Assembly (NCBI GenBank): GCA_947623455.1
Contig: OX392529.1
Location: 2,480,001 to 2,544,000 of the forward strand
Direction of reading: 5' to 3'
From: Mimachlamys varia
Lineage: Eukaryota > Mollusca > Bivalvia > Pectinida > Pectinidae
Length of the DNA stretch: 64,000 nucleotides
Position 1 is the first letter of the stretch, and each line of letters begins with the position of its first letter. Positions 1 to 57,800 of the stretch are shown here, one piece after another. The translations under genes and the position numbers were made by a program. A model generated the notes under the pieces. It was given only the letters and a program-made list of their open reading frames with translations, had not been told where the DNA came from and did not search any database.

Positions 1-599
1 AAGGGGGCACTGCGCTATTATACTGTTATAACTTGTTATGTCCCTTGTTTTACAGGACCAAGGGAGTGCTGCTGTTATAGGACACTGTTATAACTGGTTA
101 TGTCCCTTGTTTTACAGGACCAAGGGGGCGCTGCTGTTATAGGACACTGTTATAACTGGTTATGTCCCTTGTTTTACAGGACCAAGGGGGCGCTGCTGTT
201 ATACTGTTATAACTGGTTATGTCCCTTGTTTTTCAGAACCAAGGGGGCGCTGCTGTTATACAGTTATAACTGGTTATGTCTCTTGTTTTTCAGAACCAAG
301 GGGGCGCTGCTGTTATACTGTTATAACTGGTTATGTCCCTTGTTTTTCAGAACCAAGGGGGCGCTGCTGTTATACAGTTATAACTGGTTATGTCTCTTGT
401 TTTTCAGGACCAAGGGGGCGCTGCTGTTATACTGTTATAACTGGTTATGTCCCTTGTTTTTCAGAACCAAGGGGGCGCTGCTGTTATACAGTTATAACTG
501 GTTATGTCCCTTGTTTTACAGGACCAAGGGGGCGCTGCTGTTATACAGTTATAACTGGTTATGTCCCTTGTTTTTCAGGACCAAGGGGGCGCTGCTGTT
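1..599 (+). repeat. Tandem array of splice acceptor plus exon start (57-61 bp x about 10)
   Basis: Each unit contains CCCTTGTTTTTCAG or CCCTTGTTTTACAG followed by GACCAAGGGGGCGCTGCTGTT, with about 20 bases of spacer (TATAACTGGTTATGTC). The copy at 571-599 is the real start of exon a. Early units are about 61 bp; from about 179 on they are 57 or 58 bp. From about 100 to 705 the plus strand is open across units and into the exon. The array begins before the window. Confidence 0.93.
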
Positions 600-696
600 C
601 TCCACCATCCTTCTCATAGGTGCTGGCTGGGCCTTTGTTAAACACATTCTGTCTGTCAAAGAGAAGAAATTGTTCCTTATCATACTACCACTTCAG
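579..696 (+). CDS. GPR107/GPR108: GPR107/108 exon a
   Basis: Encodes a TM segment ([19 protein letters not shown]) followed by a charged turn and the start of the next TM. The acceptor TTTTTCAG ends at 578 and is the last of about ten near-identical acceptors; the donor CAG|GTACAG is at 697. Starts in phase 1 and ends on a whole codon. Confidence 0.88.
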
Positions 697-54800: not shown

Positions 54801-57800
54801 CATGTTTAGGGGTTATTCACAGCAGGTAAGTGTGACTGTACATTGGTCCATCTCATGTTTAGAGGTTATTCACAGCAGGTAAGTGTGACTGTACACGGGT
54901 CCACTCCATGTTTAGAGGTTATTCACAGCAGGTAAGTGTGACTGAACATTGGTCCACCCCATGTTTAGAGGTTATTCACAGCAGGTAAGTGTAACTGTAC
55001 ACGGGTCCACCCCATGTTTCGAGGTTATTCACAGCAGGTAAGTGTGACTGTACATTGGTCCATCTCATGTTTAGAGGTTATTCACAGCAGGTAAGTGTGA
55101 CTGTACATTGGTCCACCCCATGTTTAGGGGTTATTCACAGCAGGTAAGTGTGACTGTACACGGGTCCACTCCATGTTTAGAGGTTATTCACAGCAGGTAA
55201 GTGTGACTGAACATTGGTCCACCCCATGTTTAGGGGTTATTCACAGCAGGTAAGTGTGACTGTACACGGGTCCATCTCATGTTTAGGGGTTATTCACAGC
55301 AGGTAAGTGTGACTGTACACGGGTCCACTCCATGTTTAGAGGTTATTCACAGCAGGTAAGTGTGACTGTACACTGACATTTTATTTGTGAAAGAATAAAA
55401 AGAAAAATCAACAAAAAATAGGGAAACCTTCTTTGGACAAAGACGGATAGTCTTTGATACAACTGTAAAAGAGACAATTTGAAGCAAAAAGCACAAACAA
55501 CCCCGGAAGCACCTTTAAAGCTTAGAAAACTTCTAATGTATTTATACCGCCACCCACACCCACCTGTAAAAAATATGACTCACTGCTTTTTAATATCACA
55601 TTATCAATGTATCTATTGAAAGGATGCTCAAGAGTTTCTCCGATGTTTCATGGATGAGCTGCATGAAGAACTGAAGCAGCCTCTTCCCAGTGACTCTGAT
55701 GAAAATGACGATGATTCCGATGACAAAAATGGTGATGAGCCACACAAGTTTATAGCTTCACACGATCGTCAGTTGTCTATGGATTCTACGAGCAGCAGCC
55801 AATCAGAAGACTTCTACGAGACATGTGACTCTGGTTTGAGCAGTGAGCGGTGCTCAGCAGATGTAACAATAAATGGTGAGGATGGTGAAGTTGTACAAAA
55901 TACAGAGAACTCCACCCACAAAACAGACTCGCACTCTAGGGTGAGTGGGGGCAAAACGTACGCTCGACTTCGGCAGAACGAGGATAAGGGAGGTAAAGCT
56001 CTCAAGGAGGACTCTGTGGTGGCAAGTAAACATTTAAAGGAGACTGTCAACCAGATGTCGAAACGGACAGGTAGCACCGTGACGATTAACAGCACCACCT
56101 GTACGGAGGACAGTGGTCGTCCTGACGACATACCTTCCGACGGCGAATCAAATCAGAGTAGAGTTCGCTCAAAGTCTAGCCCACGGTTCAAACGAGCGTC
56201 AGAAAGCACAGAGGCATGTAGTGCCATGTCCAGAAACAGTTACTCCACCAAAACCAATGTGAATAAGAAAGGTAACATATCACTATCCAACGTAACATTT
56301 CTGTATACTTTCTAGTTATCCAACATTACATTTCTGTCAATTTTCTAGTTGTTATGTTAGATAACTAGAAAGTATACAGAAATGTTACGTTGGATAACTA
56401 GAAAGTATACAGAAATGTTATGCTAGATAACTAGAAAGTTGACAGTAATGTTATGTAGGACAACTAGAAAATTGACATATTTTTATGTTATATTATGTTA
56501 TGAATTCTCACATCTTTAAAGCTGACAATGCAACTTAAAAAGCTTTCAATTAATATTTTTTAAAAATTTGATTTTTTTTTCTGGTTTCGAGATCGTCCCT
56601 ATCTGTTCCGACCATCGTTTCTAAGGAATTGCCGACATTTTAGTTTTGCCATTGCTTGGTAACGAGTATGGGTCCCGTTGGGTATATAAAGGTCATAGCC
56701 TGTAAAACCGGTTTTTAAAGTACTCCTGACCGTCACAACATTCAGTGCTCCGCGCACTCGGCAACCGCTGTCAAAAATGAAACGCACTCACCTGTAGACT
56801 TTGAACCACAATACTGCCATGCTGGTTGTTACTAATAACACATTCTTGAAATTGCGTATCCGAAATAAAAGGTATGTCACTGAAAATACTTCCATAAATC
56901 AAATAGGTCCTATATATCGCCAACTTTCACGTGCATATTATATAGTCGCATCCATGTACAAACTCTTAGTCTTGGTCAAGTAGACGCTTGACAAGCAAAC
57001 ATGTGTAAAACACGGCACACCCGGATGTGTAGTCAACAATGTGAAATTATATAGTTGAACCATTCTCATGGACTTATTTGGAATTATTATGGTTTCTACG
57101 CTGGATGTTAGTACTAGTTGGATATCAAAAAGGTAGGCATAAGCGTTAATTAGCCATTTGTTTGTTTCACTTGCAACATATATTACATAAAGTTGTGTTG
57201 TGTTATTTTGTTGTAAGTTTCATGGGGATATGGATGTTTTTATTACAATTTCATTTCACATTCATTATATATCTTTCCAATATCCATATCCATATTCGTA
57301 AAAAAACACACGAAAACGAGCCGTGACATAATGTGTACAGACTATCTGTACCTGTAAAAGACGTGCTACATCGAGAGGGCAGTGTCGGAATGAAACTGGT
57401 TTTGCAACTATTGGTGCTTTTATACCCAAGGGTGTCTATACACGTTACCAAGCAAGGGTAAATAAAAAATGTCTGCCACTTCCTTGGTTACGAAAACCGG
57501 AAGACACATGGTCAATGTAGGGAACATCTCAGAAGTTTTCTGAGTAATCACAATCTGAATATTTTTTTTCAAATCTCAATTGAAAGCTTTTTAACTTGTA
57601 CTCTCAGCTTTAAGTATCAATTATCTACTACTGATGATAGTCTACTATTGATGTCAGTCAGATAGAATTCTCACATCCTTAAGTATTAATTATCTACTGC
57701 TGATGATAGTCTACTATTGATGTCAGTCAAGTAGAATTCTCACATCCTAAGTATCAATTATCTACTGCTGATGATAGTCTACTATTGATGTCAGTCAGAT

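Follow-up and report, generated by a model that had tools for sequence, protein, structure and literature searches.

Minisatellite-like repeats lying across exon-intron boundaries, known as “mirages,” are described in amphioxus, where the passages cited here place them in the Adh3 and globin genes, at 5' as well as 3' boundaries, and report normal splicing (PMC3087553). The two haplotypes of one globin gene have 3 and 6 mirage units (PMC3087553), and unit sizes of 10–72 and 150–160 bp are reported. Mirages are also noted in amphioxus PGBD5 and TnC, again with splicing undisturbed in the text cited (PMC3902484). Minisatellite-type boundary repeats with units of about 30 bp are described in human duplicated genes, where excerpts of the study give averages of about 4 repeats and 160 bp and speak of recent paralogues, novel introns and alternative transcripts (PMC2812944). 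Work on intron gain, as far as the cited portion goes, links tandem genomic duplication to splice signals (PMC4974935). Since mirages have already been described in amphioxus, the scallop arrays presented here are of a known kind, in an apparently new phylum, in larger arrays and at an apparently high frequency. Among the matches listed in the open-licence literature there was no report of boundary minisatellites in a bivalve, and both the occurrence of mirages in a mollusc and their kilobase size appear to be new.

The window, by which we mean the whole stretch of 64,000 bases analysed here (C3:2480001-2544000), comes from an assembly of 975,302,275 bases in 71 contigs. It carries two genes. 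The protein obtained by joining the window exons of the first is identical to the GPR107-like protein of Mizuhopecten yessoensis at 175 of 178 aligned residues, which identifies the source as a scallop, and Pfam finds a GOST_TM domain in it. The second carries zf-UBP and UCH domains, and the closest solved structures for its protein are USP20 and USP33. Sixteen exons could be placed in these GPR107-like and USP20/33-like genes, one fewer than the 17 coding exons of the initial annotation, and they give 30 splice junctions (Table 1). A minus-strand open frame of 532 residues (31309-32907) has no Pfam match.

Table 1. Exons and tandem arrays of the two genes; positions are those of the window, and the last four rows belong to adjoining DNA.
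Feature	Position	Strand	Repeat unit and copies	Basis or remark
GPR107-like exon a acceptor array	1..599, plus 297 bp upstream in L022 from 9704	+	57-bp unit	
GPR107-like exon a	579..696	+		Pfam GOST_TM
GPR107-like exon b, donor gtg|GTGAGT	1043..1173	+		Mizuhopecten yessoensis protein match
GPR107-like exon b donor array	1139..6256	+	41-bp unit, ~130 units	110 GTRAGT
GPR107-like exon c	6576..6669	+		Mizuhopecten yessoensis protein match
Intron c array	6698..10637	+	26-bp unit	Adjacent to exon c donor, scored as non-straddling
GPR107-like exon d, donor aag|GTACGT	10837..10884	+		Mizuhopecten yessoensis protein match
GPR107-like exon d donor array	10860..12255	+	41-bp unit, 34 units	GT kept 34/34
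GPR107-like exon e acceptor array	12300..15114	+	54-bp unit, 52 units	AG kept 52/52
GPR107-like exon e	15079..15239	+		Mizuhopecten yessoensis protein match
GPR107-like exon f, last, carries stop codon	15386..15489	+		Mizuhopecten yessoensis protein match
USP20/33-like exon 1	36716..36805	+		
USP20/33-like exon 2 (zf-UBP), donor atg|GTAAGT	39136..39261	+		USP structure match, Pfam
USP exon 2 donor array	39204..39491	+	108-bp unit, 2.7 copies	
USP20/33-like exon 7, donor cag|GTAAGT	46447..46525	+		USP structure match
USP exon 7 donor array	46492..55373	+	53-bp unit, 145 units	Outside two inserted elements
USP20/33-like exon 8	55623..56271	+		USP structure match
Donor of GPR107-like exon preceding exon a			26-bp unit, 18 copies	
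USP exon 12 donor array			72-bp unit, 2.1 copies	
USP exon 14 acceptor array			70/86-bp units, >4 kb	
USP exon 14 donor array			29-bp unit, 3.2 copies, 73% match	Weak; ~5 exonic bases

At 6 of the 30 junctions, four donors and two acceptors, the exon edge together with its splice site is the unit of a tandem array, and these six arrays stand at the junctions of both genes where the initial annotation had placed them. Its copy number of about 147 for USP exon 7 is near our 145, which comes from a forced decomposition into 167 units, less 22 that overlap the two inserted elements; this array extends over 8.9 kb and holds 139 exact CAG|GTAAGT motifs, the true donor included. Units are made up of 21 exonic and 36 intronic bases at exon a (where a 62-bp unit takes over further upstream), 35 and 6 at exon b (with some units of about 36 bp), 25 and 16 at exon d, about 29 and 25 at exon e, 58 and 50 at USP exon 2, and 34 and 19 at USP exon 7. 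The intronic share thus runs from 6 to 50 bases, a wider span than the 13–45 given earlier. The earlier statement that arrays always grow into the intron describes no measured direction: whichever copy is intact on the coding side is the exon edge by definition. The protein reads on across five of the window arrays, as judged against the scallop relative for exons b, d and e and against USP structures for exons 2 and 7.

How close is this to the amphioxus case? In all six window arrays the unit spans the exon edge, the splice site and the adjoining intron, as in mirages; donors and acceptors are both affected, in the window as in other UCH genes, and the units, here 26–108 bp, are of minisatellite size. 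The host differs, a scallop instead of a cephalochordate, and what is meant is the same type of structure, with no claim of common descent. Size differs as well, the largest scallop array reaching 8.9 kb with about 145 units, compared with 3 and 6 units in the globin haplotypes, and so does frequency, about a fifth of the junctions in two neighbouring genes being affected here. Splicing is reported to be normal in amphioxus; here it would be so judging from protein continuity. Mirages vary in length between haplotypes, and the one scallop assembly analysed contains an internal segmental duplication. The human repeats are likewise of minisatellite type and at exon-intron boundaries, but they are short and belong to recent paralogues. 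The scallop units include existing intron sequence, which speaks against intron gain by tandem genomic duplication, and they are not seen to produce a new intron.

Within the arrays, splice dinucleotides are mostly retained: in 10/10 units at exon a, 124/130 at exon b and 2/2 at USP exon 2, and in 143/145 of the exon 7 units outside the inserts (157/167 when insert-overlapping units are counted). Selection on these inner sites was considered and rejected, as the dinucleotides have no special conservation within their units, ranking 18/40, 16/40, 39/53 and 39/56. USP exon 7 at first looked like an exception, with GT at rank 4/52, but this was an artefact of units forced through the two inserted elements, and with the inserts excluded the rank is 32/52. 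Coding selection on the units was rejected too: divergence is much the same in the exonic as in the intronic part of a unit, and of 18 unit lengths just 4 are divisible by three (one array contributing two lengths). Taken together, the similar divergence, the unremarkable dinucleotides and the unit lengths indicate that the copies behave as intron. On the exon side, one copy retains an open frame and an undamaged splice site, and the inner copies drift like the remainder of their unit. By comparison with the boundary units, the 33-bp repeat that a GPR107-like coding exon holds at L022:3106-3464, with 10.8 copies of 11 residues each, keeps the frame. Units at exons b, d and e are equally alike whether near or far (lags 1–12), and in the exon 7 array likeness drops slightly with distance. 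Dispersal of the introner type was examined with 32 bases taken from the exon 7 unit, which have 103 exact matches genome-wide; for this sequence dispersal at many loci was not found, the matches listed all lying within the exon 7 array.

Other arrays start near a donor. A degenerate copy of the intron c unit (AGTACCACAACCTAA) reaches back to the exon c donor, and arrays begin within 10–13 bases of the donors of exons e, 8 and 9 without crossing them. An element-like insert occurs twice in the exon 7 array, at 49009-49553 and 51303-51847, in slightly different copies 2,294 bp apart. Its surroundings are duplicated with it (identity 0.89–0.995 over about 2 kb), so this array was rearranged after the insertion. 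Elsewhere, a Tc1/mariner-like element (59659-61196), with Pfam HTH_Tnp_Tc3_2 and DDE_3 in two frames, sits within a 45-bp minisatellite that flanks it at 58292-59658 and 61197-62185. By eye, arrays at 43366-45500, 62512-63500 and 17286-18000 resemble portions of dispersed elements with similar sequence.

Is there a true excess at exon edges? In the window, each array was collapsed to one founder unit, which was placed at random in the collapsed sequence. For the 16 genic arrays, which include two of the dispersed-element-like ones (43589-45452 and 62512-63081, neither straddling a junction), the six observed straddles compare with 2.17 expected (P = 0.012); for the whole window the expectation is 1.79 (P = 0.007). 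Taken separately, the GPR gene has 4 straddles against 1.57 expected (P = 0.04) and the USP gene 2 against 1.17 (P = 0.33). As this excess is modest, post hoc and too weak by itself, it was followed up outside the window. The adjoining DNA (L022 and L023), which the initial annotation did not cover, holds 18 further junctions of the two genes, 4 of them straddled, one weakly; the exon edges here and USP exon numbers above 10 are what we take them to be from the sequence and from vertebrate relatives.

A genome search for the UCH domain gave 64 matches, of which one is the window's own gene, 43 were taken, which fall in 40 loci and were read with flanks of about 700 bp on each side, and the remaining 20 were left out. 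The choice was made by hand, the first 20 being mixed and later ones mostly without internal stops. Some matches, L030 for instance, span an intron, so that the 43 are not 43 single exons and their 86 edges need not all be splice junctions. Arrays straddle 6 of the 86 edges: an acceptor and a donor at L030 (two different exons), the acceptors at L032, L034 and L058, and the donor at L042, where the unit has about 65 exonic and 5 intronic bases. A seventh straddle, at L039, affects the donor of an upstream exon; it was read separately and lies outside the 86 edges. At L047:1034-1129 a 36-bp array covers the stop codon of the last exon of a UCH gene, where there is no splice site, and the L057 array merely abuts a donor. 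A parallel search for the kinesin domain gave 131 matches. Two of them (C33:9806-10723 and C60:3089-4021, the latter alone stop-free) are near-complete, uninterrupted domains, possibly foreign DNA or processed copies, and several exon matches of near-equal score, at most hundreds of kilobases apart within C10:7990792-8949226, probably represent a local gene family.

For background, 21 pieces of 10 kb were sampled (the first 10 kb of C1 and C20, and 10 kb of each of C1-C19 beginning at base 10,000,001). Tandem arrays of period at least 10 make up 23.8% of these 210 kb; there are 57, and the rate at which one is met from a random point is 3.2e-4 per bp, roughly flat with distance. Around the 86 UCH edges, 8 array edges fall between -80 and 0 (1.22e-3 per bp; six splice straddles, the L047 stop codon and the abutting L057 case), 6 between 0 and 100 bp (8.1e-4 per bp) and 13 in the 35,945 bp from 100 to 700 bp (3.6e-4 per bp). 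The first bin gives P = 0.003 (Poisson) or 0.010 (binomial, the more cautious), and the two nearest bins together, 14 array edges against 5.05 expected, give 0.0008 or 0.007. Without L047 and L057 these become 6 array edges (P = 0.034 or 0.060) and 12 (P = 0.006 or 0.026). All these values come from a small sample with near and far bins picked post hoc, on the same data. GC content was rejected as the source of the enrichment, predicting 1.07-fold only. At exon edges, array edges are thus about 2.5 to 3 times as dense as further out in the flanks or around random points, a difference that is weakly to moderately supported.

These figures bear on two rather different explanations. One is ordinary chance: in a genome so rich in minisatellites some arrays inevitably cross junctions, and no true excess would exist. 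The in-window P of 0.012, the 0.33 of the USP gene alone, and the first-bin P of 0.034 or 0.060 for the six true straddles, in bins set after a first look, all leave it room. Against it, an equal share of junctions is struck in the adjoining DNA (4/18), and the two nearest bins stay above expectation even with 12 array edges once the doubtful two are removed; we consider chance rather unlikely. The initial annotation had held that chance could not hit junctions so often, which the edge excess outside the window favours and the modest in-window significance tempers. The other explanation, which we would call somewhat unlikely, is a mutational process that targets exon edges, for example through pausing of the polymerase, or conflict between replication and transcription, at splice sites. 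The two rates nearest the exon stand well above those beyond 100 bp and at random points, and GC explains little of this; but the sample is 43 matches of one domain family, the P values weaken once the stop-codon and abutting cases are removed, and the array over the L047 stop codon hints that any border of constrained sequence may be affected. The first 100 bases of introns are also crowded with arrays that stay clear of the junction, and the junction's position within the unit varies greatly between arrays. Between the two options put forward earlier, duplication favoured at splice sites and tolerance of repeats where the outer junction survives, tolerance fits the cases seen; a splice-aimed process is conjectural. 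A comparison of the proposed kind, of the 86 UCH edges with distant or random positions, came out higher near exon edges, though with splice straddles alone the first bin falls back to the borderline values above.

Could the arrays be kept because many splice sites help, as back-up sites or as a U1 snRNP platform in long introns? The 139 exact donors of exon 7 and the 110 GTRAGT of exon b might suggest so, but splice dinucleotides are conserved no better than many other unit positions, and the USP exon 14 unit, in its 70-bp form, is missing TTATCTGTTATAG and hence the acceptor, which makes such a benefit improbable. Birth of new introns by tandem duplication of exonic sequence (the Rogers model) would be helped by mostly exonic units like those of exon b and L042, yet we judge it very improbable: the decomposed window units contain intron sequence that the protein skips, and no new intron position is evident. 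Least probable of all is an assembly artefact. Arrays of such length are difficult to assemble, the exon b array contains an exact 879-bp repeat, and assembled copy numbers may be off; on the other side, units differ among themselves, the exon 7 insert is present in two slightly different copies, and arrays of 2–3 copies exist too.

The arrays are therefore best seen, and in our view are likely to be, mirages: boundary-spanning minisatellites produced by tandem duplication, with the exon-side junction retained and an apparently greater density at exon edges. In this minisatellite-rich scallop genome, the founder would be a short tandem duplication that chanced to fall across an exon-intron boundary, arising by slippage or by joining between short similar sequences on either side of the junction. 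Similar sequences one unit apart do lie across the junction at the L030 acceptor (AATGTACC), at exon e (GTATAACCTG and GTATGACTTG) and at exon b (CTGTGTTGTGGGG and CTATGTTGGGG), as would be expected from such an origin. On the other side, such homology is weak or absent at exons 7 and d, and USP exon 2 units include some 35 bp of untraced origin. Unequal exchange or conversion may then have amplified and homogenised the copies. Exon definition, which pairs sites across a short exon, would keep the exon-proximal site in use; it would choose the exon-side copy at donors and acceptors alike, whereas a shortest-intron rule would choose the far one. Judging from the reading frames, the exon-side copy would be required to keep the known protein. 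With an intact exon-side junction and exon definition, splicing would still use the exon-proximal site and the cost of an array would be low; surplus copies would become intron, and the intron would lengthen, at some junctions by kilobases. If the edge excess is real, plain uniform birth of arrays is insufficient; if it is not, the enrichment part of this explanation fails. A broader proposition, that tandem duplication in scallops is concentrated at exon edges genome-wide and that minisatellites have come to occupy from several up to twenty per cent of junctions, is one we put forward tentatively and hold to be doubtful.

In the literature covered here, mirages have so far been reported from a few amphioxus genes. 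Should they be common in a second, distant phylum, they would act on the length of introns quite generally and might supply raw material for intron gain. The 139 perfect donors that follow one another in the exon 7 intron offer a direct test, in a natural gene, of how the spliceosome chooses among identical sites, by proximity and exon definition or by site strength. If the genome-wide concentration is true, introns would have a steady means of growing, and there would be a natural experiment in splice choice, in which more than 100 identical donors are resolved to the exon-side copy by exon definition.
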